Shown in pieces: positions 4,339 through 19,219 of a stretch of 49,604 nucleotides of DNA. A model generated the notes under the pieces. The model worked only from the letters and a program-made list of their open reading frames with translations. It was not told the origin of the DNA and searched no databases. Every line of letters begins with the position of its first letter. Position 1 is the first letter of the stretch. A program made the position numbers and the translations under genes. Source of the DNA: a virus; the IMG/VR virus record IMGVR_UViG_3300042507_007719, positions 1 to 49,604 of that record; one strand, written 5' to 3'.

Positions 4339-4619
4339 CCTACGGAGGCTATCCGCCGTTTGTCGCGGGAAGCGACACGAGTGCCGAAGCGGCTTTGCAG
4401 ATCGCGCCCGATACCAACCGGCTCCGCCGTTTGGTGCTGGAGGCGATTGATGCGGGACGCGGCATGACTTGTTGCGAGGTGGAACGGAACTTGGGCTTGC
4501 GGCATCAGACGGCGAGTGCGCGCATTCGTGAGTTGGCACTGAAAGGCCGCGTAGTGGACAGCGGTGAACGGAGACTCACGGCATCCGGACGAAAGGCCGT
4601 GGTGTGGAGAAAGATATGA
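4335..4619 (+). CDS. Winged-helix DNA-binding protein, 94 aa
   Basis: The GTG start at 4335 overlaps the upstream stop (GTGA). A longer frame to 4236 would overlap the membrane-protein gene completely. After a Tyr/Pro-containing N-terminus (GGYPPFVAGSDTS), the domain at about residues 25-90 reads as a winged helix: helix LRRLVLEAI, a turn, recognition helix HQTASARIREL, then the wing KGRVVDSGERRLTASGRKAVVW. The last part, with SGxRxxTxSGRxAxVW, is typical of small phage MarR-like winged-helix proteins. It is probably a phage transcription regulator. It is coupled by ATGA to the next gene. Confidence 0.75.
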   Translation: MTYGGYPPFVAGSDTSAEAALQIAPDTNRLRRLVLEAIDAGRGMTCCEVERNLGLRHQTASARIRELALKGRVVDSGERRLTASGRKAVVWRKI

Positions 4620-4855
4620 CAACAAAAGAGCTACCATTGCCGTCCGCCGACAAGCTGTGGACGCATTTGCGGGTGCAGGATCCGAAGGAACTGCGGCGGC
4701 AGGGTTACAGGATGCTGGCGGGGCCGTATGCCGAGCGAGAGGCGGAATTGTTGCGTTCGGTAGTCGGAGATGCCGACCGGAGTGGGCGGTATCTGGGTTA
4801 TTCGGAGGACGCGGAGCGCCAGATTCATGTATGGCAGAGGAGCAAACGTCTATGA
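4616..4855 (+). CDS. Hypothetical protein, 79 aa
   Basis: The start ATG at 4616 overlaps the upstream stop (ATGA). An in-frame ATG at 4604 is possible but would overlap further. The protein (MTTKELPLPSADKLWTHLRV) is soluble and charged, with a helix-rich middle (REAELLRSVVGDAD) and a basic C-terminus (IHVWQRSKRL). No family is recognised. It sits between the winged-helix gene and the glycosyltransferase, coupled at both ends. Confidence 0.6.
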   Translation: MTTKELPLPSADKLWTHLRVQDPKELRRQGYRMLAGPYAEREAELLRSVVGDADRSGRYLGYSEDAERQIHVWQRSKRL

Positions 4856-5889
4856 ATGGTCGGATCGTTACATTGCTGCGGGACTACGAGGGGCACGGGC
4901 TGAAGTTTCGGGGCGGGGAGTCCTATGTGGTGGAGGATCCGACCCTTGGGCATTTGCTCATGATGGGGTTGGTCGGGCGGATGCGAGACAGAGATTTGGA
5001 ATTTGAGAGGAACTTGAAAGAGGCGAAAACGGTCTTGGTGACTCGCAGTGGGGGGTTTGGAGATATTTTGTTTTTGACCCCGCTTTTGCGGACCTTGGTG
5101 GCGGCGGGAAAGAACGTGACGGTGTGCTGTCATGCGAAATACCGCGAGGCGTTGTCGGGGGTGCCGGTAGAGTGGCGCCCGTATCCGATGCCGTTGGCGG
5201 AGGTCATGCCGTATGATCGGGAAATCTGGTTGGAGGGGGTCATCGAGTTTGCCGAGAGGCCGGAAATTCATGCGGTGGATTTGTTTGCCGAGGCGGCGAA
5301 GGTGGAATTGACGGAGGGCAAGGAGGTCAGCTTTGCCGTGCGGGACGAGGATCGGGCTTGGGCGGAGTTGGAGTTTCCGAAGAAGGGCAAGCGGGTGGGG
5401 GTGCAGTTGATGGCCTCCAGTCCGGCGCGGACGTATCCGAAGGAGTTGATGGTGGAGGTGATCCGGCGATTGCTGGAGAAGGGAGATACGGAGATTGCGT
5501 TGTTCGGGGCGCCGGGGACGGTGCAGTTGGAGGCGAACCATCCGTTGATTTTGAATGTGGCGTCGAAGGCCGATCTGTTCGGTCAATCGGCGGCGGTGTT
5601 GGAGCAGTGCGAGGTGGTGCTGGCGCCGGATAGCGCCATCGCGCATCTGGCGGGGGCGTTGCGGTTGCCGACCATCGCCCTCTACGGGCCGTTCCCGTGG
5701 CAAGCGCGCACGGCGTATGCGCCGACAGTGCGGGCTTTGACGGGGGCGTTGCGTTGCGCGCCGTGCTTTTGGCACGGACGGGGCGGCTCGTATCCGCCGG
5801 ATGGTCCGTGTTCGATCACCGGCAGGTGCGAGGCGTTGGGGCAGATCGAACCGGAGCGGATTGTGAGGGAGGTGCGGAAGTATCTATGA
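4852..5889 (+). CDS. Glycosyltransferase family 9 (heptosyltransferase-like), 345 aa
   Basis: I chose the ATG at 4852 because it overlaps the upstream stop (ATGA); the open frame extends further back but only as a shadow. The N-terminal half is a Rossmann-like domain with TVLVTRSGGFGDILFLTPLL at about residues 60-79, the GT9 opening motif. The C-terminal half has the nucleotide-sugar-binding pattern: GVQLMASSPARTYP, then LAPDSAIAHLAGALRLPTIA, then LYGPFPWQART. A Cys-containing tail (CAPCFWHGRGG) follows, as in many GT9 enzymes. GT9 enzymes transfer ADP-heptose or related sugars in LPS assembly. In a phage it could modify the host surface or decorate a virion protein. It lies in an operon with an FkbM-type methyltransferase and a DUF5672-like gene, so a glycan-modification role is likely. 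Confidence 0.85.
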   Translation: MNGRIVTLLRDYEGHGLKFRGGESYVVEDPTLGHLLMMGLVGRMRDRDLEFERNLKEAKTVLVTRSGGFGDILFLTPLLRTLVAAGKNVTVCCHAKYREALSGVPVEWRPYPMPLAEVMPYDREIWLEGVIEFAERPEIHAVDLFAEAAKVELTEGKEVSFAVRDEDRAWAELEFPKKGKRVGVQLMASSPARTYPKELMVEVIRRLLEKGDTEIALFGAPGTVQLEANHPLILNVASKADLFGQSAAVLEQCEVVLAPDSAIAHLAGALRLPTIALYGPFPWQARTAYAPTVRALTGALRCAPCFWHGRGGSYPPDGPCSITGRCEALGQIEPERIVREVRKYL

Positions 5890-6399: not shown

Positions 6400-6683
6400 A
6401 ATTTTTAGCAAAAAGACCCAAGCGGTTCGGGTGGAAATCGGTGAAGACACCCGCAACACCCGCAACACCCGCAAGAACATCCGCGAGACGCGCGGGATGG
6501 AAAGTGCCGATGACGCACAGGCTGGAATTGGAGCCGTTGCGGGAGTTGCGGGTCAGAGATGGGGGCTATCTGGTGGCGCCGTGTCTGGTGCTGTGGGCGG
6601 CGGTGTGGGGAACGCGGGAGGCTTACGAGTATGCTATGGCCAATATGGCAGCGGCACGGGGCTGTGATTTTCGGAGGGTATGA
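6396..6683 (+). CDS. Hypothetical protein with a TPA repeat, 95 aa
   Basis: The ATG at 6396 overlaps the upstream stop. The N-terminus is basic (MKFLAKRPKRFGWKSVK), followed by three TPA units encoded by three tandem copies of ACACCCGCA (6447-6473). A helical domain follows (LEPLRELRVRDGGYLVAPC, LWAAVWGTREAYEYAMANMA). The C-terminal helix with small residues may be membrane-associated. Function is unknown. It is coupled to the FkbM-like gene by ATGA. Confidence 0.55.
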   Translation: MKFLAKRPKRFGWKSVKTPATPATPARTSARRAGWKVPMTHRLELEPLRELRVRDGGYLVAPCLVLWAAVWGTREAYEYAMANMAAARGCDFRRV

Positions 6684-7249
6684 TCGAACTGGCGCGAGTG
6701 TTGCGGGAACAGGGTTTGCCTATGCCGCGCGTGGTGTGGGAGGTCGGGGCGAACCATCCGAATCAGGTGCATGTGGCGCCCTTGATCGGTGACGCGGAGC
6801 GGGTGGAGCTTTTCGAGCCGCATCCGTATTATGCCGAGGAGTTGCGGCAGTTTTTCGGGACCGGCGGCAAAGTAACGGTGCATGAGGTGGCCTTGAGCGA
6901 TCAGCGCGGTGCGCGCTTGCTGCGGGATGACGGATGCAGCTCGTATCTGGACGGAGTGGCAAGTCCGCGCGCGAGCGTGGGCAATGAGCCGAGCAATAGG
7001 GTCACGGTGATTTGTCGCACCGTGGATTTCTATGATCGGGGTGACATCGAGTTGCTGGCCATCGACACAGAGGGTTCCGAGTGGCACGTGATCAAGGGGC
7101 TGGCGAGCCGTCCGTGGCTGATTTGTGTGGAGATGGGGTGGCAGCATTACCGCAATCCGTATGCGGAGGAGATCCGGCAGTGGATGGGTTGGCAGGGCTA
7201 CCGCATGGTGGAGACAGACGGACAAGATGAGGTCTATGTCCGTCCCTGA
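6680..7249 (+). CDS. FkbM-family methyltransferase, 189 aa
   Basis: The start ATG at 6680 overlaps the upstream stop. The Rossmann-fold SAM-binding pattern is visible: VVWEVGANHPNQVHVAPLI (motif I region, with VGAN in place of VGAN/D-G), VELFEPHPYYAEEL (acidic residue and Pro for the SAM ribose), KVTVHEVALSDQRGARLL (motif with VALSD), then the FkbM core RTVDFYDRGDIELLAIDTEG and LICVEMGWQHY. FkbM-family enzymes O-methylate sugars or polyketides. The length (189 aa) is at the short end for the family but all core motifs are present. It is probably a glycan O-methyltransferase working with the neighbouring glycosyltransferases. Confidence 0.85.
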   Translation: MIELARVLREQGLPMPRVVWEVGANHPNQVHVAPLIGDAERVELFEPHPYYAEELRQFFGTGGKVTVHEVALSDQRGARLLRDDGCSSYLDGVASPRASVGNEPSNRVTVICRTVDFYDRGDIELLAIDTEGSEWHVIKGLASRPWLICVEMGWQHYRNPYAEEIRQWMGWQGYRMVETDGQDEVYVRP

Positions 7250-8213: not shown

Positions 8214-8459
8214 ATGGCGGCGAGCGATTGGGTGGAAATCTATGCGACCTACAGTGGGGGGGAGTTGGCTGCCGAGATTGATGCTTTGAAGAAGCTGGCG
8301 ACCCCGCTTTCCTCCCAGCAGATCGGGAGCAAGAGCTACACCAAGGACTTGCGGGAGGTGCGGGACCGGCTGCAGGCGGCGAACCGGGTGCTGCGGACGC
8401 GGAATGCGAGCGCGGCGGATTACACGGCGGTGGCGGACTTTTCGAGGATTGAGTTCTGA
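8214..8459 (+). CDS. gpW-like head-tail joining protein, 81 aa
   Basis: The start ATG at 8214 has GGAGGG 3 nt upstream. The small helical protein (WVEIYATYSGGELAAEIDAL, LREVRDRLQAANRVLRT) matches the size and position of lambda gpW, which sits directly before the portal gene and joins head to tail. The segment SYTKDLREVRDRLQAANRVL resembles the second helix of gpW-family proteins. The stop overlaps the portal start (TGATG). Identification relies on position and secondary structure more than on sequence. Confidence 0.65.
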   Translation: MAASDWVEIYATYSGGELAAEIDALKKLATPLSSQQIGSKSYTKDLREVRDRLQAANRVLRTRNASAADYTAVADFSRIEF

Positions 8460-10219
8460 TGGATCCCAAAATCACATTTCTGGACAAGGCGATTGCCGCT
8501 GTCTCGCCGGAGGCGGGCTTGCGGCGGATGGTGTCGAAACACTGGTTGCAGGAGTTCGAGCGGGGGGATTGGAACAAGGAGCAGCGCGGTTATTCGGGCG
8601 GCAAGACGCGGCAGGGATCGCCGGAAACGCAGCGCAAGCAACGTCAGCGGATCAATCGGATCTGGGAAGCGCGGGACATGGAGGAGAAGTTTTGCTTCAT
8701 CCGTGGGGTGCTGGAGAAGCTGACGCAATACACGTGCGGGGCGATCACGTATCAGAGTCGCACGGGGGATTCGGACATCGACCAAGAATACCAGGACTAT
8801 TTCCATGATTGGTGCGGACGGGCGGATTTGACGGGGCGGTTCCGGCTGGCCGAGCTGGTGCAGTTGGGCTTTCGGGCCACGGCGCGGGATGGTGAATACG
8901 GGTGGATCGTGATTCCCGATGGGGACGAGATCCGCTTGCAACCAATCGAGGCTGACCGGATTGGCGGGCCGGATCAGGTGAAGGCCGAGGAGCGCAACGT
9001 GAACGGCATCCTCTTGGACGATCTGGGCCGCGTGGCGGGCTACGAGATTTACAAGCGTTCGCGCATGGCGCAATACACGAAGGAGACGTTCGATTTCGGG
9101 CTGGGCGCGGGGGTGGTGCCGCCGGAGATGTTTTTGCATCTGTTCCGTCCGACGCGGGCGGATCAATACCACGGGGATAGCTGGCTGTCGCCACTCTTGC
9201 CGCACGCTCGGGACGTTCATGAGTTGTTCGGCTTCGAAAAAATGGCCATGAAATTTTCGGCCGCGTTTGCGGGCTTCATCCGGCGCAAGGATAGCGCCCC
9301 GACCGGCAGCGGGTTGGATTGGATGACCAAGACCGGCTCAACGAGCGGGCCGAATGCTTTCGAGGTGCAGGCGGGAATGGTCAAAAGGTTGCAAGAGGGC
9401 GAAGAAATCACCTTCCCCGGCAGCACGGGGCGCCCCTCCGGAAACCTGATTCAGTTTGTGGAAATCCTGATCCGCGAGATGGCCTTGGGGCTGAATTTGC
9501 CCTTTGGGTTTTGCTACAATATGGCGCTTTTGGGCGGGGTAACGGCCAGAATCGAGGTGATGCAGGCATGGCGGACGATCCAGCAATACCAGCATTTGCT
9601 CGTGGACAAGGTGTTGAACAAAGTGCGGGATCTGGTGCTGGAGCGGGCCATTGCCATGGGCAAGATCACGCCGCATCCGCTCTGGCAGGCGGGAGCATGG
9701 AATTTCGGCGCGCGGCTGACGGGCGACACCGGCAACTATGTGCAGGAGCAGATGCTTTTGCTGCAGAACGGCATTATTCCGCGCGGCAAGGTGATCGAGG
9801 AGATCGACGGATCGAGCAACATGGAAGTGGCGCGGACGCTGGCCCGCGAGGTCAAGCAGTTGCAGGAAGTCGCGGCGGAATCGGTCGTGCCGATCGAGCT
9901 AATCGTGCCGAGCATGGCCAACGCTACGCAAATGTTGGCGGCGATCAATATGCCTCCGGAAATGCCTCCGCCTCCGGTCAAGGGCTTGGTTGGCAAGGTC
10001 GGGGAAAAGACCGCCGCGCAGTTGATTGATGTGCTCACGGCCCATGCCGAGGGCCGGTTGGAGCGGGAGAGCGCCATCGCGAGCCTTGTCTATGTCTATG
10101 GGGTGCCACGGGCCAAGGCGGAGTCGCTGGTGCCAGAGAAGCGCCCGCAAGTGGAGCAAAGCAATGGAGGCGGAAATCCAAACAGCGGAAACGTCCGAGC
10201 AAACGGCAGCGATGAATGA
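8459..10219 (+). CDS. Portal protein, lambda family, 586 aa
   Basis: The ATG at 8459 overlaps the upstream stop. The portal forms the dodecameric ring through which DNA enters and leaves the head. Recognisable lambda-type features are the N-terminal basic region, the wing segment LQPIEADRIGGP, a nearby HLFRPTRADQYHGDSWLSPL, and the helical stem region FGFEKMAMKFSAAFAGFIRR (about residues 255-275). The NLPFGFCYNM stretch and GGVTARIEVMQAWRTIQQYQ follow. The length is normal to slightly long for the family. A C-terminal extension (about residues 500-586) contains a helical LIDVLTAHAEGRLERESAIA hinge and a disordered Asn/Gly tail. Its end overlaps the next small gene. Confidence 0.9.
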   Translation: MDPKITFLDKAIAAVSPEAGLRRMVSKHWLQEFERGDWNKEQRGYSGGKTRQGSPETQRKQRQRINRIWEARDMEEKFCFIRGVLEKLTQYTCGAITYQSRTGDSDIDQEYQDYFHDWCGRADLTGRFRLAELVQLGFRATARDGEYGWIVIPDGDEIRLQPIEADRIGGPDQVKAEERNVNGILLDDLGRVAGYEIYKRSRMAQYTKETFDFGLGAGVVPPEMFLHLFRPTRADQYHGDSWLSPLLPHARDVHELFGFEKMAMKFSAAFAGFIRRKDSAPTGSGLDWMTKTGSTSGPNAFEVQAGMVKRLQEGEEITFPGSTGRPSGNLIQFVEILIREMALGLNLPFGFCYNMALLGGVTARIEVMQAWRTIQQYQHLLVDKVLNKVRDLVLERAIAMGKITPHPLWQAGAWNFGARLTGDTGNYVQEQMLLLQNGIIPRGKVIEEIDGSSNMEVARTLAREVKQLQEVAAESVVPIELIVPSMANATQMLAAINMPPEMPPPPVKGLVGKVGEKTAAQLIDVLTAHAEGRLERESAIASLVYVYGVPRAKAESLVPEKRPQVEQSNGGGNPNSGNVRANGSDE

Positions 10220-10343
10220 GTTGCGGTCCCTCGTGGACCGCGCTGATCGGCTGACGATGGATCTGGCCATTGCGCGGCGGGATTTGCAGCAGCTTCGTAA
10301 TGCGATGCAGATGTTTATTCACCGATGGGGGCAAGCGGCATGA
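10164..10343 (+). CDS. Small coiled-coil protein, 59 aa
   Basis: The frame MEAEIQTAETSEQTAAMNEL is followed by heptad-like LRSLVDRADRLTMDLAIARR and ends FIHRWGQAA. I chose the ATG at 10164; the ATG at 10212 gives a 43-residue version that overlaps the portal only by 8 nt. It is a single amphipathic coiled coil. Position between portal and the giant internal protein suggests a head accessory or scaffold helper (inference). It is coupled to the next gene by ATGA. Confidence 0.55.
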   Translation: MEAEIQTAETSEQTAAMNELRSLVDRADRLTMDLAIARRDLQQLRNAMQMFIHRWGQAA

Positions 10344-13300
10344 GCGAACTAACTCCATTAGCAAAATCGGTCTGGCGCCATTACTACGGGAAGCTGAAGA
10401 AGCAGACGCGGGGTGGGAAGTTGAGCAAGCAGTTAGACGGCTATCTTCCGGGGGATCGGAGGGAATCTAAGCTGCCGTTGTTGTTTCGTGGGACCAACAA
10501 AAAAGAAGTGGAAAACCTCGCACGGGGAAGGTTTAGGTCGAAGTGGGGGCAGGGAGATCGCGCGCCAGCGGTTTATCCAGAAAGTGAAAAAGAAGTGCGT
10601 GAAGCTATTGGAAGCAAGTCCCTGACTTGGGTTGCATCAAATCCAAAGATAGCTGCCAATTATGCTACTCACCGTCCGCGCGAGCAGGCGCGGATTGTCG
10701 CGGTGGCGCGGGGCGCTTTGAAAAGGCGAGATCGAGTTGTCAGTAACGCTATTGGAGCAACAACAACAACTGCCCCGCTTCGTGGCGGGATTGCGGCAAA
10801 AGAAGCGCGCGGGTTACTCAAAGGCAAGCCGCCGCAAGACACCTTCATGGCAACCTCAAGGGACTGGCGCTGGAAGCCGGTCCCCCTTGGCGACATTCAG
10901 AAGAAGCAGTTCAGCCGAATTGACAGGTCGGTTGTGGCGATGAACCGCCGTGATGCGACTCCGATTGGCTATGAGGGAGGGATTCCACTGACAGGGCGGG
11001 TTCCGCGTGATCGTTGGGTAAAGAAGATCCGCGATGAGGACTTGGATCGGCGCGATGCGAATCTGTTGCGGGCGGGTGTGACCGGCGCGGCAGCGGGGGC
11101 GCTGCTTGGTCGCGGTCAGATGCCTTTGAAGGCGCGGGTGGCGATCGGCGCCGGGTCAGGCTTGGCGGGTGTGCTGGGAATCCGGCAAGTGACCAAGGGA
11201 CGGCGTGATCCGTATGGTGAGCGTCAGCGCGGCGACAAGAACGCGGAGAGCATTCCGGCGCTGGCCGGTTTGGGTGCGGCGGGTTATGGCGCCTACAAGA
11301 TTTTGCGGAAGAAGTTCAAGATGTCGGATGGTCGGAAGGTGACGGAACTGGCCGAGATGTCGGCTGCCCAATGGAAAAAAGCTACTGCGCGTATGCCCGA
11401 CGATCCGCGTCAAAAAGCGGCGGCAAAGTGGCTAAAAAAACAAGGTCACAACTCTTATGTGAATTGGGGCTGGACTGATGGAGTCCACAAAACTTACAGC
11501 AAAAAGTATAAAACCGAAGGAGATCGCCTGCTTATTCATGAGGAAGATGGCAAACTGAACGTGCGCCGTGCGGGGGACGACAAGCTGGTCGCTTCATTTT
11601 CGTCCATCGAGTTTGCCGAGAAGAAGCGGCAGATGAACCCTTACGTGATGGCGGGGCTGTCGGGTGCGGCATCTGGTGCGGCATTGGGGATTTTGCCTTT
11701 GCTCCGGCGCGGGGTTCGGCTGCGGACGGCGGCGCGCACGGCGGCGGGTGGGGCAGCGGCGGGTGGAGCGATTGTCGGCGGCGGCTCGTTGCTGGGGAGT
11801 TCGATTTTGGGAGATCCGGATAACAAGGAGGGCGCGGCGTTTACGAAACGGGCGGCGGTGGGGGGAGCGATTGTCGGCGGGACTTTGGGCGTTGCCGGTG
11901 GGCTGGCAGCGCGGCGAGTGCCCGTAGTAAAGCAGGCCATTAGGGGTATGAGCAAAGAATGGCGACCGGCCATGTGGATTCGTCAGGTGGGTCCAGCGCG
12001 CGCGGCAGCGATCGGTGGTGTCGCTGGTGGTGCTTATGGAGCCGGGACCGGAGCGGACGAAGGGCAGCAAGTGGATAGTATCCGCAATATCCGCAAGGAC
12101 TTGAAGCGGATGCACGGGTTGTCGGCGGTGGAGTTTTCAGAAAATGTGATCATTAAGCAAAAGCGCGACACGTTGAGCAAGGTGCGCGATGCGGCGCAGT
12201 TGGCGGCGAGTTTGGGCGTGTTGGGATTGGCGGGCTACGCGGGATTGCGCACGCACAATCTCTACAAAATCGCCCGCCGTAAGATTCCGCAGGTGGCTAC
12301 GGCGATCGAGAAAGAGGCGCCCGGTGTTGCGCGGTATACCAAGGCCACGTTGCGGAGCGTCCGCAAAGCGTCTTCCCAAGTCTCGCAGACGAGCCGCGAT
12401 ATTCCGGCCAAGATTGACCGGATCGGCACGGTGATTGATGACGGTATGCTGGGCAGCGGTGGTTTTCGCGCAGCGTTCCGCAAGAAAAAGGAACTTTCGG
12501 CTATTATGTTTGAGCAAGAAAAGAAGCGTAATCTGGCCACGACAGCTATTTTGACCGGCGCGGCAGCGGGTGGCGCCGTGGCGGGAACGATGATCGGGTT
12601 GCGGGGCGGAAAAGCGGCGGTGCGCGTAATCCGCAAAGCCGATCGTGATGTGCGTAGGCAGGCTTTACGAGTCGAGAAAACGATCAAGAACACGGCGCGT
12701 CAGGTTGGTGGGGTCGCCACCAAAGCCGGGGAAACACAGAAATCGGTGCGCGAGTCCACCCGCATGTATGCGGATGTGGGCAGAATTTATCGCGAGGCCA
12801 AGGGCGGGCTCTACAATCTCTTGCATCCGGTCAACACGTTGCGGGAGACGAAAGCGGCGTTTCGAGCTGGTTTGCAGGGGAAAAGCTATTACCCGACCCG
12901 CCCGCGTCCGGAGTGGGCGATGTCGTCGGCCTCGGAGTTGGTGGAGCTTTCCGTTCGCGCGCGTAAGAATTTGCATGACGTAGCAAAGCAACGGATTGCA
13001 AATAAGCTGAAAAAAAACGGTAATATTGTTGTTGTTGCGCCTGAGTTTGGGCAGCTATGGGTCGGGCGTCCTCGCACGGAATTTTCTGAAAAGCCGTTTT
13101 CCGGCTACAACAAGAAGCGTCATGCGCGGACGGGTGGGCTGAATGATCGCTTCCGCCAGCAATACAACCGGGAGCATGGGAGTAAGCTGAAGCGTCCCGT
13201 CACGACCGAGCCGAGCAAACTGAAGCCGGGCAGCAAGGCAGCGAAGCGCCGTGCTTCTTTCTGCGCCCGCATGGGAGGAATGCAGGGACCGACCAGCAAA

Positions 13301-14986
13301 GACGGCAAGCTGACGCCGAAAGGTGCGGCTTTGAAGCGCTGGAATTGCTCGTCCCTGCAACAGCTTATCGAAATGAGCGACCGAACTTATCGTCCTGGCT
13401 CTACCGCTGAGATGCGCAGCATGAAGCCGACTACGGCGATCAAAGAGATTTTGAAAAAGGAGAACGCGCGGGGGTCAATCCGGCAGAAGGTGAAGACTTT
13501 GTTGCGGGTGCTGCCTTTCGAGGCCAGGCATGAGTTTCAGACCATGGCGCCGGGTCTGACGCCGGAACAGCGGCAAGTGCGCAACACTTTGTTGGTCACG
13601 GGTGCGGTGGTGGTTCCGGCGGCAGCGGCCGGATACATGGCGCATCGTTCGTTTCGTGAAGCGGATCGCAAGTATGGGGAAATACTGAATCGCACCGGCA
13701 TGCGCCCCGCCGATGTGTATGCAGGCAGCCGCCGCACGAATCGCGTGCTGGCGTTACCCGCTCCTTCCGCGACCCGTGGCGATGCGCCCCGTAAAATCAA
13801 AGAAGCGTATTCGACCGGCACATCTTGGGGTGTGCGGACCATCGACAATACCGGCAAGCCTTCGGCCAAAGTTCTGAGCAGGCAGGGCGGTGGAGTGAAC
13901 GTGCTGCCGATGGATTACACGCGCAGCCGTTACGGGGTGCGGAATCCGAAGGTCATCGTGCCTCCGCCCGGCCCTCGCGCGACGGAGGCCATGAAACTTC
14001 GCGCGGATCGCAACATGGCACTCAAGCCGATCGGCCAGAAGCGTGATCCTAAGATGAAACCGATCTTGGAGCGTGGCAAACGCTTGCAGAGGATCGGGTC
14101 CGACACAAAGAAGTGGTCGCGCGGTGAACGCAAGGCGGCGCGCGCCACTTTGGCCATGCTGCGGAAGCGTTACGGATTTGCCAGTGCGGCTTCAGTCACG
14201 GAATTGGATATTTATGCCCGCAACAAGAAAACGGGGCGTGCCTCGGGATTCTGGGATTACACCCGTGGCGAGGAGTTGGTGGGACGCGACAAAAAAGCGG
14301 TAGATGTCACCTTACCTGCCTTTATCGGTGCGGCGCAGCGCGAGGCAACAACCGGCTGGCGTTATGCACGGCGCGCGGGTGGCTTGGCGCAAGATTTGGG
14401 GGAAGTGGCATCCGGGCAAAAGACGAAGAAGCGCGAGTGGGAGAAAGGCTGGTTCCGTAATGCCGTGGCGGTCGGAGGCATGGGCGCCGGGTTGTTGGCG
14501 CATGGCTTGATCTACCGGAGCGGCAAGATCAACCCCCGCGCGCCGCGCTGGGCCAAGTCTTACACGCGCACGGTGGACGACATAGGCGAAAAGATCAACC
14601 GGTCCCGCTCGTCGTTGATGAAGCAGGTCAACCGCAGTGTGGGGCTGAGTGCGCGCCTGAAGCGAATCAGCCTGGACTACGATGCGGCGATGGTGGGCTG
14701 GGATGTGCGAGATCCGCGCGGCCGGAGTGCTCGCGTGTTTGCGCCGGGGGCGCGTCCGCGTTACCGCCGTCAAGCCGATTGGCATGAAACCAAGGATGGT
14801 CAGCGGAAAGTGCTGATCGGCGCGGGAGTCTTGGGTGCGCTGGCCACGGGTGCCGGAGGTATTTTGGTGGGGCGCCGGATCGGCCAAGTGAAAACTCTGG
14901 TCAAGCGCCGCGGCATCTACTCGGGCTACCAGAAGGCGCAACAAAATAAGCGGGTCATTATCCCGATGTTTCCTTCTGCAAGTTGA
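10340..14986 (+). CDS. Giant modular basic head protein, 1548 aa (putative ejection or internal protein)
   Basis: The ATG at 10340 overlaps the upstream stop (ATGA). The protein alternates basic soluble stretches with about ten Gly/Ala-rich hydrophobic segments (for example near residues 436-455, 466-490, 505-523, 735-758, 1083-1100, 1490-1515). These look like glycine-zipper membrane helices. A motif of the type (I/V/T)E(F/L/M)(S/A)(E/D) or a close variant recurs at residues 334, 423, 597, 722, 868, 913, 1010, 1286 and 1443. Near residues 958-1003 there is a Cys-containing basic module (SFCARMGGMQGPT, LKRWNC) known in other phage proteins. The N-terminal 130 residues (LFRGT at 48-52, TWVASNPKIAANYA at 96-109) faintly resemble ADP-ribosyltransferases. 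Its place between portal and protease fits a DNA-ejection or internal head protein, possibly cut by the prohead protease. Function is inferred. Confidence 0.8.
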   Translation: MSELTPLAKSVWRHYYGKLKKQTRGGKLSKQLDGYLPGDRRESKLPLLFRGTNKKEVENLARGRFRSKWGQGDRAPAVYPESEKEVREAIGSKSLTWVASNPKIAANYATHRPREQARIVAVARGALKRRDRVVSNAIGATTTTAPLRGGIAAKEARGLLKGKPPQDTFMATSRDWRWKPVPLGDIQKKQFSRIDRSVVAMNRRDATPIGYEGGIPLTGRVPRDRWVKKIRDEDLDRRDANLLRAGVTGAAAGALLGRGQMPLKARVAIGAGSGLAGVLGIRQVTKGRRDPYGERQRGDKNAESIPALAGLGAAGYGAYKILRKKFKMSDGRKVTELAEMSAAQWKKATARMPDDPRQKAAAKWLKKQGHNSYVNWGWTDGVHKTYSKKYKTEGDRLLIHEEDGKLNVRRAGDDKLVASFSSIEFAEKKRQMNPYVMAGLSGAASGAALGILPLLRRGVRLRTAARTAAGGAAAGGAIVGGGSLLGSSILGDPDNKEGAAFTKRAAVGGAIVGGTLGVAGGLAARRVPVVKQAIRGMSKEWRPAMWIRQVGPARAAAIGGVAGGAYGAGTGADEGQQVDSIRNIRKDLKRMHGLSAVEFSENVIIKQKRDTLSKVRDAAQLAASLGVLGLAGYAGLRTHNLYKIARRKIPQVATAIEKEAPGVARYTKATLRSVRKASSQVSQTSRDIPAKIDRIGTVIDDGMLGSGGFRAAFRKKKELSAIMFEQEKKRNLATTAILTGAAAGGAVAGTMIGLRGGKAAVRVIRKADRDVRRQALRVEKTIKNTARQVGGVATKAGETQKSVRESTRMYADVGRIYREAKGGLYNLLHPVNTLRETKAAFRAGLQGKSYYPTRPRPEWAMSSASELVELSVRARKNLHDVAKQRIANKLKKNGNIVVVAPEFGQLWVGRPRTEFSEKPFSGYNKKRHARTGGLNDRFRQQYNREHGSKLKRPVTTEPSKLKPGSKAAKRRASFCARMGGMQGPTSKDGKLTPKGAALKRWNCSSLQQLIEMSDRTYRPGSTAEMRSMKPTTAIKEILKKENARGSIRQKVKTLLRVLPFEARHEFQTMAPGLTPEQRQVRNTLLVTGAVVVPAAAAGYMAHRSFREADRKYGEILNRTGMRPADVYAGSRRTNRVLALPAPSATRGDAPRKIKEAYSTGTSWGVRTIDNTGKPSAKVLSRQGGGVNVLPMDYTRSRYGVRNPKVIVPPPGPRATEAMKLRADRNMALKPIGQKRDPKMKPILERGKRLQRIGSDTKKWSRGERKAARATLAMLRKRYGFASAASVTELDIYARNKKTGRASGFWDYTRGEELVGRDKKAVDVTLPAFIGAAQREATTGWRYARRAGGLAQDLGEVASGQKTKKREWEKGWFRNAVAVGGMGAGLLAHGLIYRSGKINPRAPRWAKSYTRTVDDIGEKINRSRSSLMKQVNRSVGLSARLKRISLDYDAAMVGWDVRDPRGRSARVFAPGARPRYRRQADWHETKDGQRKVLIGAGVLGALATGAGGILVGRRIGQVKTLVKRRGIYSGYQKAQQNKRVIIPMFPSAS

Positions 14987-15008: not shown

Positions 15009-15536
15009 ATGAACGACATGATCAAAAGCAAGCTGGTAGCTCTGGAAGCTAAACTCGACGCGAAACTCTTTGCCACCTATCGGGGACCTGATGGGCGCTA
15101 TTACCAAGACGACGAGGGCTCCGCTCTGGGCACCGGTTTGAAAGTCGGGGCCGCTGGTGCCGCGGTGGGCGGCGCCGGTTACGGGGCTTTCCGCGCGGAC
15201 CAAGCGATCATGGGTCGCTATGGCCAGCGCAATTTGCTGCCACTCGGAAGCATGGAACCGGGCAGTCCTCGCTCTATCAGCACCCGCTCGGCCGCTCCGG
15301 CTAATGTCGCTCCGGGATCGCTCCAAACGGGTGTCAGCCGCCGCGCTGCTTACGGGCAGGCGCTTACGGATGCCAAGAATACCGTGATGAGCAAGGGCCA
15401 GCAGGGATTGCAGGCGGGAAAGCAGGCTTTTCGGGCCGGTGCTGCTGAAGTGGGCAACACAACCAACGTGTTTACCCGCCTCCGCCGCGCTCTGCGTATG
15501 GGCGCTCGCGTGGCCACTGGTGGACGCATTGGCTAA
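15009..15536 (+). CDS. Head-associated Gly/Ala-rich protein, 175 aa
   Basis: The ATG at 15009 follows GAAAGAC weakly. The N-terminal helix (MIKSKLVALEAKLDAKLF) is followed by ATYRGPDGRYYQDDEGS and a Gly/Ala-rich hydrophobic stretch (GLKVGAAGAAVGGAGYGAF). The rest is basic and low in structure-breaking residues. Its composition and the hydrophobic Gly segment match modules of the giant protein immediately upstream, so it may be a detached module of the same system. No named family is recognised. Confidence 0.65.
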   Translation: MNDMIKSKLVALEAKLDAKLFATYRGPDGRYYQDDEGSALGTGLKVGAAGAAVGGAGYGAFRADQAIMGRYGQRNLLPLGSMEPGSPRSISTRSAAPANVAPGSLQTGVSRRAAYGQALTDAKNTVMSKGQQGLQAGKQAFRAGAAEVGNTTNVFTRLRRALRMGARVATGGRIG

Positions 15537-15538
15537 CA

Positions 15539-16195
15539 ATGAAGCGGGGCAAAAAGCGTTGCTGGAAAGGCTGTAGGCCGGTTCCCGGCAAGAAGCCTTA
15601 CAGCGCGGGCAGCTGCACTTGCAGTATGTCCGCGCTGCGTCCCGGCATGATCGAGCTGATGCGCGGGGATTTTGCCATTCCCGCGTTGAAGCGAGCACTG
15701 AAACGCGGGGTGGGGAATGCGGGGGAGCCGGTGTCGATCCATGAGATCGGCGTTTCCGGCACGATGATTCCTTCTTTGCGGAAGAATCCGGCTAATGTGC
15801 GGCGGGCGACCAAGAAGTATTGGGGGCAGGATGAAGGTCTGGAGCAAGCCACGGCGGCCATGCGCTACAATCGGGATTGGGCGGCGAAGACAATCAGGGA
15901 AAGTCGGAAAAATGACCGCTATCGGCGTGATGTGAGAGATAACTTACCGGACTTGGAGTATTTGACCCGCGGACTGCGACTGGCGGCGCTGGCGCCAGGC
16001 ATGATCGAGTTTGCCGATTCGCGGCCGCGCAATGATATGGGGCAGTATATGGCCAATGAGACGGGGGGGGCCGATCCGAATTCGATGGCGGCGGCTTATG
16101 GGAATGTGGAGCAGGAAAAAATCATGCGCCGCCGCAGTTTGGTGCAGCGGATGAAGGCGATGATGGGACGTAACGATCAGCAGCCTGTGATGTAG
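15539..16195 (+). CDS. Basic head protein with Cys-rich N-terminus, 218 aa
   Basis: The start ATG at 15539 lies 2 nt after the upstream stop. The N-terminus KRCWKGCRPVPGKKPYSAGS is a short Cys/Lys module that I know from other phage structural proteins. It is followed by LRPGMIELMRGDFAIPALKR. A second, similar motif appears later as LAPGMIEFADSRPRNDMGQY (about residues 150-170). Both contain the IE(L/F) pattern seen repeatedly in the 1548-residue protein. The C-terminal part is helical and basic (LVQRMKAMMGRN). It is probably a minor head or internal protein, processed or packaged together with its two upstream neighbours (inference). Confidence 0.65.
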   Translation: MKRGKKRCWKGCRPVPGKKPYSAGSCTCSMSALRPGMIELMRGDFAIPALKRALKRGVGNAGEPVSIHEIGVSGTMIPSLRKNPANVRRATKKYWGQDEGLEQATAAMRYNRDWAAKTIRESRKNDRYRRDVRDNLPDLEYLTRGLRLAALAPGMIEFADSRPRNDMGQYMANETGGADPNSMAAAYGNVEQEKIMRRRSLVQRMKAMMGRNDQQPVM

Positions 16196-16535: not shown

Positions 16536-16541
16536 TTGACA
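16536..16541 (+). promoter_or_regulatory. TTGACA element, 15 nt before ATG 16557
   Basis: The hexamer precedes the protease start and overlaps a possible alternative TTG start at 16536. The downstream region is a hairpin (16548-16569). Confidence 0.55.
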
Positions 16542-16547
16542 AGGCCG

Positions 16548-16580
16548 CCGAGTTGTATGAACAACTCGGTTTTTTCTTTT
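16548..16580 (+). terminator. Terminator-like hairpin containing the protease start codon
   Basis: CCGAGTTGT (16548-16556) and ACAACTCGG (16561-16569) are perfectly complementary, the loop is ATGA, and TTTTTTCTTTT follows. It has every property of a rho-independent terminator, yet the ATG of the 16557-17840 gene is the loop, and its first codons (NSVFSF) are encoded by the stem and T-tract. Confidence 0.75.
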
Positions 16581-17840
16581 GCCACCCGCGGCCTTTCGGG
16601 GCGGGTGGATCGTGAGGCAGGCATCATTCGTGGCGCGGCGGTGATCACGGGCGGGGTGACGGCGCGCGGTCATGACTTGGAGGTGGATGACAAGACGCTC
16701 GAGCAGATTGTGACCTGTGGCAATGCCAAGGGGAGGGTGCAGGTAAAGCTCAATCACAAGGATCCGCAGGCGTTGCAGAGCATTTGCGGATACTTGGAGG
16801 GTTTTAGAAGGGAGGGCGACAAGGTGGTGGCGGATTGGCACCTCTTAAAGTCGCACGAGGAATACGACAAGTTGATGGAGAGAGCGGAGCGTATGCCGGA
16901 TTGCTTCGGGCTATCGGCGGCGTTCGCCGGTCCTCCGCAGGGCGAGAAAGTGAAAGGTGGGAAGAAAGCGGCGCGATGCGAAGAACTCCTAGCCGTCGAC
17001 TGCGTGGCAATGCCCGCTGCGAACCCACAGGGGCTTTTTGAGGACGCGCGGGTGGTTGACACACCGCGCGAGGAAAATTCTATGGATAAGAACCAGCAGA
17101 ACCAGCAGGAGCCGACGATTGCCGATGTGCTCGCCGCGCTGAATGAACTCAAGGCGACCGTCACGGACGTCTCCAACCGTCAAGCCGAGATCGACGCATT
17201 GATCGAGGCCAACACTCCGATCACCGCCGAGGAGCTGCAAGAGCTGGCTTCAATGAGCGATGCAGAATTGGCCGATCAAGGCATCAGCCGCGACGAGGTC
17301 AACGCCGCCATCGAGGCTTACAATGCCGAGGTCGAAGCCGAAGCCGGTGAAGGCGCCGAAGGCGAAGCGGAAGGTGCGGGCGAAGCCGGTGAGGCTGCGG
17401 TTCCGGCCGGTGCTTCGGCTGGTGAAGGTGCTTCTTTCAGCGAACTGCGCAAGCGCGTGGTCGAACTCGAAAGCGCCCTGAGCGCAAAGACGGAAGATGC
17501 CGAGAAGGCGGAGATCCTGACGGCGTTCGACGTGCTGGAGCAGAAAATGACCGCGCTGGCGGCGCAGAATGACGCTTTGCAGCGCACCATTCGCCTGCAG
17601 GGGATCAAGGCAGCGACTCCGGGAACGGAGAGCGTGCGGATGTTCAATGCGCCGGAAGGCGACGAGAAGGTGACGGAATTTGACCGTCTGGTTTCGGCCA
17701 AAGCGACCGAGCTGGAGGGAAAGGGACAGAGCAAGACGACGGCTCGCGCGAACGCGATCCGCTTCACGATGAAGGATAACCCGCGCGCTTATGCGGAGCA
17801 CAACGCTCATCGCGGGATCGTCAAACTCGCCGACGCCTAA
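16557..17840 (+). CDS. Prohead protease fused to scaffold, 427 aa
   Basis: I chose the ATG at 16557 (MNNSVFSFATRG); the TTG at 16536 is an alternative. Residues 1-170 form the protease: a beta-rich start (AAVITGGVTARGHDLEV), VQVKLNHKD with the probable catalytic His, CFGLSAAF with the probable catalytic Ser, and CEELLAVDCVAMPAANPQG. After a linker, residues 176-427 are scaffold-like: Gln/Asn-rich start, long acidic Ala/Gly/Glu stretch (VEAEAGEGAEGEAEGAGEAG) and coiled coil (LRKRVVELESALS). Lambda C and other phages place protease and scaffold in one gene with the scaffold also made separately. An internal start at 17082 (GAGG plus ATG) fits that plan. It acts inside the prohead to shape the shell and then cleave internal proteins. 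Confidence 0.85.
   Translation: MNNSVFSFATRGLSGRVDREAGIIRGAAVITGGVTARGHDLEVDDKTLEQIVTCGNAKGRVQVKLNHKDPQALQSICGYLEGFRREGDKVVADWHLLKSHEEYDKLMERAERMPDCFGLSAAFAGPPQGEKVKGGKKAARCEELLAVDCVAMPAANPQGLFEDARVVDTPREENSMDKNQQNQQEPTIADVLAALNELKATVTDVSNRQAEIDALIEANTPITAEELQELASMSDAELADQGISRDEVNAAIEAYNAEVEAEAGEGAEGEAEGAGEAGEAAVPAGASAGEGASFSELRKRVVELESALSAKTEDAEKAEILTAFDVLEQKMTALAAQNDALQRTIRLQGIKAATPGTESVRMFNAPEGDEKVTEFDRLVSAKATELEGKGQSKTTARANAIRFTMKDNPRAYAEHNAHRGIVKLADA
17082..17840 (+). CDS. Internal-start scaffold protein, 252 aa (nested)
   Basis: An in-frame ATG at 17082 (MDKNQQNQQEPTIADVLAAL) is preceded by CGAGGAAAATTCT, a good ribosome-binding site, and by TTGACA at 17056-17061. Translation from here would give the scaffold portion of the protease-scaffold gene alone, as with Nu3 inside C of lambda. 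The product is acidic and coiled-coil-rich, suited to forming the core on which the capsid assembles. Evidence is the site and the domain boundary. Separate expression is inferred. Confidence 0.6.
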   Translation: MDKNQQNQQEPTIADVLAALNELKATVTDVSNRQAEIDALIEANTPITAEELQELASMSDAELADQGISRDEVNAAIEAYNAEVEAEAGEGAEGEAEGAGEAGEAAVPAGASAGEGASFSELRKRVVELESALSAKTEDAEKAEILTAFDVLEQKMTALAAQNDALQRTIRLQGIKAATPGTESVRMFNAPEGDEKVTEFDRLVSAKATELEGKGQSKTTARANAIRFTMKDNPRAYAEHNAHRGIVKLADA

Positions 17841-17860: not shown

Positions 17861-18217
17861 ATGGCAACCATCAATGACAGTGCAGACAGCTTTGTGGCGG
17901 CAAGCTCGTCTGGGGTCGCGGGTAAGATCCGCGTCAAACTCAACAGCGACCGCAAATTGGAAGTGGCCGGTGGCTCCGACATCGAAATCGGTGTGACTGA
18001 CTACAAAACGAAAAACGGCACGGAAGTCGTGAAGGTCAATCTGACCAACGGCGGCGGCAGCTTTGAAGTGACCGCGGGCGGCGCGGTGACTCCGGGAGCC
18101 ATCGTCAAGCGTGCAGCGAACGGCAAGGTCACAACCGACGGCGCCGGAAGCAACTTCGGCATCGCCCTGGGATCGGCGGCGGCCGACGGCGAGATCATCG
18201 AGGTCTACCCGCTCTAA
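17861..18217 (+). CDS. Capsid decoration/cement-like protein, 118 aa
   Basis: There is a strong AAGGAGG ribosome-binding site 10 nt before the ATG at 17861. The protein is beta-rich with Gly/Ala (SFVAASSSGVAGKIRVKLN, NGGGSFEVTAGGAVTPGAIV, GIALGSAAADGEIIEVYPL). The end pattern GxALGxAAADGxIIxV is typical of DUF2190/capsid-stabilising proteins found just before the major capsid gene. It would bind the outside of the shell. The good ribosome-binding site suggests high expression. Confidence 0.75.
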   Translation: MATINDSADSFVAASSSGVAGKIRVKLNSDRKLEVAGGSDIEIGVTDYKTKNGTEVVKVNLTNGGGSFEVTAGGAVTPGAIVKRAANGKVTTDGAGSNFGIALGSAAADGEIIEVYPL

Positions 18218-18238: not shown

Positions 18239-19219
18239 ATGTATCGCAACACAGACGCAGAAATCCGGCCTGAGCTTCAGGTCGTTGTGCAAGAGGCTTT
18301 GGAGGCCGAAAAATTCTTCATCGCCGACAAGGTGTTCACGCCGTTCGGTGTGGGAACCAAAACCGGCGAGTATCGCAAGATCCTCAAGGGCAGTGGTCAA
18401 CTGTTGGCTTCGACCAGCAGCGACATCACCCTGCGCGCACCGCGCACGGCTTACAAAGAAGTCGATCGTAGCTATGAGAAGGCTTCGTTTGCCTGCCAAG
18501 ATCGCGGTTTGACCGAAGTGGTCGATGACAGCGATCAGGCGGATCTGAGTCGTTTCTTCGACGCCGAGAGCGTCTCGACGCGCCTCGTTCTTTCCAACAT
18601 CCTCCGCGCGCAAGAGAAGCGCGTGGCGTCCAAGGTGATGAACGAGTCGATCTGGGGCAAGGCGGATGCCGCGGTGGCTTACACCGAGGCGAACATCGCC
18701 ACTCTGGATGTGGCCCGTGACATCGAGGAATCGATCGCTCGCGTCCACAAGCGCGGCGAGATGGTCAACACGATCATCCTTTCCCGCAACATCTGGAAGC
18801 GCGTTCGTCGCAGCCAGAAACTGCGTGAGTATGTCTTCGGCGGCGACAGCGGCGGCAAGATCATCACCAAGGGCGTGTTCCTGGACATCTTCCAAGACAG
18901 CGCTCCGATCCAGAATCTGATGATCGCCGAGGCGGTCGAGTCGACAGCCAGCAAAGGGCAGTCGGTCACTGACAACAAGTTGTCCTACATCTGGGGGGAT
19001 GACTACATCTGGGTGGGCTGCGTCATGCAAGGTGCCCCTGAGATGGGAGGTGCCGGCCGTATCTTCTACTGGCAGGAAGACGCTGAGTTCCAATATGTCG
19101 TCGAGAGCTATCGCGAAGAGAGCCGCCGTTCCAACGTGGTTCGCGTGCGCCAGCACAACGACGAGCATGTGGTCAACGAGTGCGCAGGCACTTTGATCAA
19201 GACGGGCTACACGGCCTAA
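18239..19219 (+). CDS. Major capsid protein, 326 aa
   Basis: A strong GAAGGAGG ribosome-binding site precedes the ATG at 18239. Position after the decoration gene, length and composition fit a major capsid protein. Visible features are an N-terminal helix (LQVVVQEALEAEKFFIADKV), the capsid-like segment YRKILKGSGQLLASTSSDIT, a long central helix region (LSNILRAQEKRVASKVMNES) and the C-terminal beta-rich part (YIWGDDYIWVGCVMQGAPE). It resembles the DUF-type or P22/HK97-like capsid proteins of tailed phages that pair with DUF2190 cement. I am confident of the role by context and less so of the subfamily. A terminator follows. Confidence 0.85.
   Translation: MYRNTDAEIRPELQVVVQEALEAEKFFIADKVFTPFGVGTKTGEYRKILKGSGQLLASTSSDITLRAPRTAYKEVDRSYEKASFACQDRGLTEVVDDSDQADLSRFFDAESVSTRLVLSNILRAQEKRVASKVMNESIWGKADAAVAYTEANIATLDVARDIEESIARVHKRGEMVNTIILSRNIWKRVRRSQKLREYVFGGDSGGKIITKGVFLDIFQDSAPIQNLMIAEAVESTASKGQSVTDNKLSYIWGDDYIWVGCVMQGAPEMGGAGRIFYWQEDAEFQYVVESYREESRRSNVVRVRQHNDEHVVNECAGTLIKTGYTA

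Follow-up and report, generated by a model that had tools for sequence, protein, structure and literature searches.

Gene order at the locus

In the window (the whole stretch of viral DNA analysed, 49,604 nucleotides, from an uncultured phage taken to infect Verrucomicrobiota), a giant open reading frame sits between the portal gene and the protease-scaffold gene. Portal protein (lambda family; Pfam/PHROGs searches): 8459..10219 (+). Giant gene, probably encoding a modular head polyprotein: 10340..14986 (+), 1548 aa as translated from the window; its ATG at 10340 is part of an ATGA that includes the stop codon of a small ORF upstream. The upstream ORF (10212-10343) codes for a small coiled coil (MNELRSLVDRADRLTMDLAIARRDLQQLRNAMQMF...) and is kept in L009 (contigs of relatives bear L numbers). 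After the giant gene come two smaller proteins, a short membrane protein, the protease-scaffold fusion, a small head protein and the major capsid protein. The second putative head-cargo protein (175 aa; 15009..15536, +) carries the N-terminal motif KLF↓ATY (the arrow marks a candidate junction; F codon 15069-15071); the third (218 aa; 15539..16195, +) carries PGMIEL (L codon 15656-15658) and PGMIEF (F codon 16010-16012); all three motifs had been noticed in the initial annotation and are present. Protease-scaffold protein: 434 aa, 16536..17840 (+), assigned from its predicted fold and the alignment of relatives; small head protein: 17861-18217, phrog_673 scaffolding / Phage_cement_2; major capsid protein: 18239..19219 (+), phrog_1005, used as an anchor for finding relatives; no obvious motif copy was seen at its N-terminus.

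Upstream of the head genes, a heptosyltransferase-like gene (4564-5889) and a FkbM-methyltransferase-like gene (6680-7249) were recognised by eye; in L012 a relative of the former stands between portal and giant gene.

Protease-scaffold protein

The protein encoded at 16536-17840, between the portal and capsid genes, was not recognised by Pfam, PHROGs or NCBIfam. An AlphaFold model was built from 19 relatives (pLDDT 72.8); its top match was T4 gp21 (5jbl; Foldseek E 5.9e-4; Z 10.2 over 133 residues), herpesvirus proteases were next (Z about 6), and many annotated prohead proteases in a viral library were matched as well. The protein is thus predicted to be a protease of the T4 gp21 / herpesvirus-assemblin fold, its protease domain being taken as 16536-17060, and the enzyme that the initial annotation had placed next to the giant gene as a prohead protease does have the predicted fold of one. 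H74, S127 and D155 are invariant in the alignment of the 19 sequences, H74 and S127 being candidates for the catalytic His and Ser. F15 (16578-16580), near the N-terminus, is also invariant in the 19 sequences and stands within K-E-F in many; a second candidate site, SVRMF↓N, lies at residue 370. The C-terminal half looks like a scaffold, as judged from its position and coiled-coil look without a family match, and holds a recurrent candidate site, PLAF↓SAEG or VRMF↓NAPEG; motif-like sequences within the coiled coil (e.g., VRELSARF) are candidate cut sites only. A SET-domain gene (PF00856, 27.3 bits, above cut-off) stands among the head genes of L014 (7837-8331), directly preceding the protease gene; L015, L016 and L017 have it too.

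Recurring motif in the window protein

Nine short segments of the type (I/V/T)E(F/L/M)(S/A)(E/D), or near variants, had been described in the giant protein; all are there, within 1–2 positions of the residues given. The literal formula [IVT]E[FLM][SA][ED] matches at five sites (335, 423, 597, 913, 1010) vs 0.02 expected (2000 shuffles); 868 (VELS) and 1287 (TELD) are close to it, and 722 (AIMFEQ) and 1443 (RISLDYD) are weak-looking by themselves. The latter two are supported by orthologues: 722 aligns with ALMF↓AEKK of L004, and the junctions aligned with 1443 read KKLREL↓D, QMF↓D and KEF↓S. Two junctions of the same type, at 191 (QKKQF↓S) and 1066 (RHEF↓Q), had been overlooked. Since the formula was drawn from the window protein itself, it is post hoc there; the relatives provide independent tests, which weigh more.

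Modules and predicted fragments

The eleven junctions give twelve predicted fragments of 45–223 residues, each basic (pI 9.6–11.5); all are encoded on the + strand. Module 1 (residues 1–191; 10340..10912) terminates with QKKQF↓S and is found in L003, L004 and L033, and missing from L009, L012 and L014; its AlphaFold model was unusable (pLDDT 35), and an ADP-ribosyltransferase reading (RGT ... TWVASNPKIAANYA) is not claimed, no Pfam or PDB match having been obtained. Module 2, the GIPLTGR module (192–337; 10913..11350), terminates with KVTEL↓A; module 3 (338–425; 11351..11614), with SSIEF↓A, and is lost exactly motif-to-motif in L009 and L014 (KMSDGR-FEF↓AEKK). Module 4 (426–599; 11615..12136) terminates with SAVEF↓S and has Gly-zipper hydrophobic segments with 13 GxxxG. 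Module 5 (600–724; 12137..12511) terminates with SAIMF↓E; it is behind the GIPLTGR module in the window, and the homologous stretch of L035 is ahead of it. Module 6 (725–870; 12512..12949), with a hydrophobic Gly/Ala segment, terminates with ELVEL↓S; module 7 (871–915; 12950..13084), with RPRTEF↓S.

Module 8 (916–1012; 13085..13375), terminating with QLIEM↓S, contains DUF6321 (PF19846; residues 929–1001; 48.8 bits vs a Pfam gathering cut-off of 28.5), the sole domain of the giant protein recognised by Pfam, NCBIfam and PADLOC; Pfam detected it in three relatives as well. Outside this group DUF6321 occurs mainly in cyanophages and Pelagibacter phages; in Pelagibacter phage Ran it is a free-standing 79-aa protein encoded between the scaffold and capsid genes, which agrees with a release of module 8 as an independent head protein. 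A literature search for DUF6321 found no papers.

Module 9 (1013–1066; 13376..13537) terminates with RHEF↓Q; module 10 (1067–1289; 13538..14206), with SVTEL↓D; module 11, the KKREWEK module (1290–1445; 14207..14674), with RISL↓D; module 12, the WDVRDPRGRSARVF module (1446–1548; 14675..14983), has a hydrophobic hairpin. The suggestion that the products are many small membrane-active ejection proteins fits in part: hydrophobic Gly-rich (Gly/Ala) segments are present in five of the twelve fragments, and the others, one of them with DUF6321, are soluble and basic.

In modules of relatives, zinc-peptidase-like signatures (HEAGH, HEIGH; L040:3501-6083 and L018:4337-6535) were seen; an LRAT/NlpC-like module (YGVGVG...NCE, by eye) is free in L004 (14725-15786) and inside the giant protein in L033 (1007-5752). 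Database searches gave no backing for either the zinc-peptidase or the LRAT-like (HYGVGVG..NCE) reading, and both are leads only.

Relatives and module exchange

A direct search for relatives gave three contigs. With the capsid protein, and next the protease, as anchor, the set grew to about 20 different phage contigs, plus four contigs of Verrucomicrobiota genomes (Akkermansiaceae, Spartobacteria, Verrucomicrobiales, Chthoniobacter). The Verrucomicrobiales locus, L052, is probably a prophage, because its 250-kb contig also carries bacterial ABC transporter genes (judged by contig number). Among cultured phages of the phage collection none had the giant protein or the protease; the DUF6321 part alone is known elsewhere.

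The differences between the window and its close relatives consist of entire segments with motifs at their edges. The DUF6321 module changes its place (SFCARM at 973 in the window, 483 in L004, 194 in L012 and 582 in L014), and the order of modules 11 and 12 is swapped in L018. Of the nine sites first described, seven have a homology break no more than 12 residues away (2.5 expected, p about 0.005). Family-wide, 82 of 152 motif sites in 86 head-region proteins lie within 8 residues of a break (35±5 expected), and the excess persists with matches of <60% identity only (68 vs 32). Three of four decoys (order- or residue-changed) were flat at the breaks, and Trp was flat; F followed by S/A/D/N/E stood at a break in 42% of cases, other F in 28%. 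The fourth decoy, hydrophobic-then-E, was found at breaks as well (9/21) and may belong to an F↓E-K junction class.

Fusion and fission of genes take place at the motif and lend indirect support to a viral polyprotein. A separate 353-aa gene of L004 is internal in L033, from KLKLREF↓D onward; gene 6714 of L049 (MNIRLKLHEL↓AAKS) corresponds to the stretch of L045 after LQGLKEL↓AARS (89% identity); the CWKGCKPVPG module of the third head-cargo protein has its own gene start in the window and is fused after RVVEL↓G in L004. The giant gene of L012 begins at the M of RVEM↓SQAIG of L004; the start of the window protein, M-SELTPLAK, aligns with QF↓SELSPTAK of L004 and resembles KEF↓SALSDTEK of L035. 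Such cases may be regarded as natural experiments: the N-terminus set by a start codon is nearly the one that the putative cut would yield. The homologue alignment proposed in the initial annotation thus came out as expected for a cleavage signal: the motif is conserved, the spacers vary, and modules are gained, lost, relocated and fused at the motif.

Motif across the wider family

The generalised motif is [FL]SA[KR]L+xL[RK]E[F/L/M]-[S/A/D], with G too at the following position in the wide family. In the 86 head-region proteins of the wider family, [LIVM][RK]E[FL][SADGN] gave 66 matches vs 2.5 expected; in control proteins, 30 vs 3.1. The control matches come nearly all from small cargo-like genes that directly follow the capsid gene or directly precede the giant gene; with the control set so contaminated, the head-vs-control contrast is conservative, and a generic coiled coil, considered in the same comparison, was discarded as the origin of the motif. 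Of 176 motifs, 30 are located within the first 25 residues (13.6 expected); the majority lie further inside the proteins, and there are cargo genes that begin with no copy.

At three orthologous junctions the hydrophobic and the small/acidic residue are kept, and E and the helix vary; three modules retain a hydrophobic↓small-or-acidic junction shortly upstream despite a different upstream neighbour. Conservation of this pair while E varies makes F/L/M the likelier P1 residue. Many sites read LxE-F, and E is absent at several orthologous junctions where F/L stays; the cut is therefore probably after F/L/M, and a T4-like cut after E (LxE↓) is possible. As read from the alignments, the signal is degenerate and the exact cuts are uncertain, because E is not kept at every junction. 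Motif codons differ synonymously, even among copies within one gene, which argues for selection on the peptide.

In L044, L045, L046 and L047, NHGGHGEHGG / NHRGHREHGG stretches stand just ahead of several motif copies, often at gene starts, both among the head genes and downstream of the capsid gene. They have the look of short DNA repeats read through in translation, and modules may have been joined there recently. Post-capsid genes of L038, L040 and L043–L047 (about 11700–14700) bear the same motif (ALRELAARSE...EFAMVRD) and may form a second cargo cluster.

Interpretation and alternative readings

The giant protein is probably a head polyprotein that is processed by the prohead protease and delivers basic proteins into the head. 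That the neighbouring protease cuts it had been proposed in the initial annotation; the motif and its enrichment, its position at junctions, the module exchange there, the gene context and the gp21 fold are seen in sequences and model, and cutting, scissile bond, packaging, ejection and activities are inferred from them.

The motif might instead serve only for binding or targeting (to scaffold, capsid or portal), with the giant protein left whole as an internal head protein of the beads-on-a-string kind; we consider this unlikely, though the least unlikely of the alternatives. In its favour, the motif is amphipathic at many sites (LSAKLRLREL) and, as would be expected of targeting peptides, is more frequent near N-termini than by chance; T4 CTS peptides have both functions, targeting and being cut (PMC9026906). 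However, some separate genes (the giant gene of L012, L004_c) start at a junction with no upstream peptide, so a copy before each module is not required; moreover, the hydrophobic/small pair is better kept than the helix, and F is invariant at the N-terminus of the protease itself.

A second alternative, which appears improbable, is that the protein is ejected whole as a multidomain effector of the 'polyvalent protein' kind, its short linkers lying at spots prone to recombination. Polyvalent proteins have many domains and are variable; their genes lie close to those of the virion, and they are presumed to be injected (PMC5512222). HExGH and NCE signatures can be seen by eye, in modules of the relatives only; against this reading, DUF6321 alone is recognised by the three domain searches, and the linkers share one specific motif conserved as amino acids rather than as DNA. 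This last property also bears on a DNA-level recombination linker that merely marks where modules were joined: the location at module junctions and the HGGHGEHGG-type repeats preceding some copies would suit it, but the peptide is kept while codons differ even within one gene, and the motif recurs at the protease N-terminus; with the codon variation pointing to selection at the amino-acid level, the linker was rejected as highly improbable.

If the polyprotein reading is adopted, the giant protein would co-assemble into the prohead with the protease-scaffold protein; the gp21-fold protease would cut at the motif copies, most likely between F/L/M and S/A/D, to give about a dozen basic proteins, which would stay packaged together with the DNA. 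At infection, the ones with Gly-rich hairpins would plausibly exit with the DNA to act on the host envelope, and others would act on functions of the host. The motif, which frequently takes the form of an amphipathic peptide ([FL]SA[KR]L+xLRE[FL]), may double as a targeting signal, cf. the T4 capsid targeting sequence. The same signal at every junction would make modules freely swappable between phages. A broader proposal, which we put forward tentatively and would rate at somewhat less than an even chance, is that this clade of Verrucomicrobiota phages uses the polyprotein as a cassette platform, in which any module between two targeting-and-cutting peptides is packaged in a fixed ratio, freed by the protease and delivered to the host; the linker would perhaps be excised by two cuts.

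If true, the polyprotein would be a new way of loading a virion, in which all cargo proteins come in the same number of copies and modules are easily swapped. The very large proteins without annotation that these phages encode between portal and protease would then be explained, head cargo could be sought by a sequence rule, and a simple tag system for packaging foreign proteins in phage heads would suggest itself.

Comparison with known systems

Trimming of individual internal head proteins is already known in tailed phages; a polyprotein of exchangeable cargo would be new, and no description of a multi-module cargo polyprotein was found in the freely accessible literature searched.

By analogy, T4 appears to offer the closest mechanism for the giant protein. 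The T4 gp21 consensus is (L/I)xE↓, the cut being after E and not after F, whereas E-F/L/M-small is preferred here. In T4, basic internal proteins enter the prohead by means of a 10–19-residue peptide that is removed by gp21, and many internal proteins, together with the ADP-ribosyltransferase Alt, are ejected (PMC9026906). Common to the T4 internal proteins (IPI-III, Alt) and the present system are the basic character, a protease of gp21 fold and variable cargo; the short hydrophobic/acidic motif near the start of the T4 proteins may have its counterpart in the copies near N-termini here. T4, however, has separate cargo genes with one N-terminal peptide each, and here up to a dozen modules stand in one chain with the motif at each junction.

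In SPN3US several cuts are made within one propeptide (PMC10052503). SPN3US and phiKZ (ejection proteins processed by gp245 / gp175) likewise have many head proteins, a prohead protease and repeated motifs in the propeptide; there, long N-terminal propeptides are chopped and one mature part is left, whereas here the inter-motif segments are conserved exchangeable modules.

The polyvalent proteins DarA and DdrB of P1 are proteolytically processed (PMC5512222); these and other polyvalent proteins are likewise giant, mosaic, encoded near virion genes and likely packaged. They are defined by recognisable enzymatic domains in one chain, and here DUF6321 alone is recognisable; no uniform junction motif was encountered in the passages on them that were consulted, in contrast to the uniform one found here.

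In staphylococcal 80alpha the host enzyme Prp cuts capsid and scaffold between F and A (PMC5744158), a cut of the F↓A/S type as proposed here, there removing a short N-terminal peptide. Prp is host-encoded and one peptide is removed by it, whereas the enzyme described here is phage-encoded and of predicted gp21 fold, and its candidate sites are internal and repeated.
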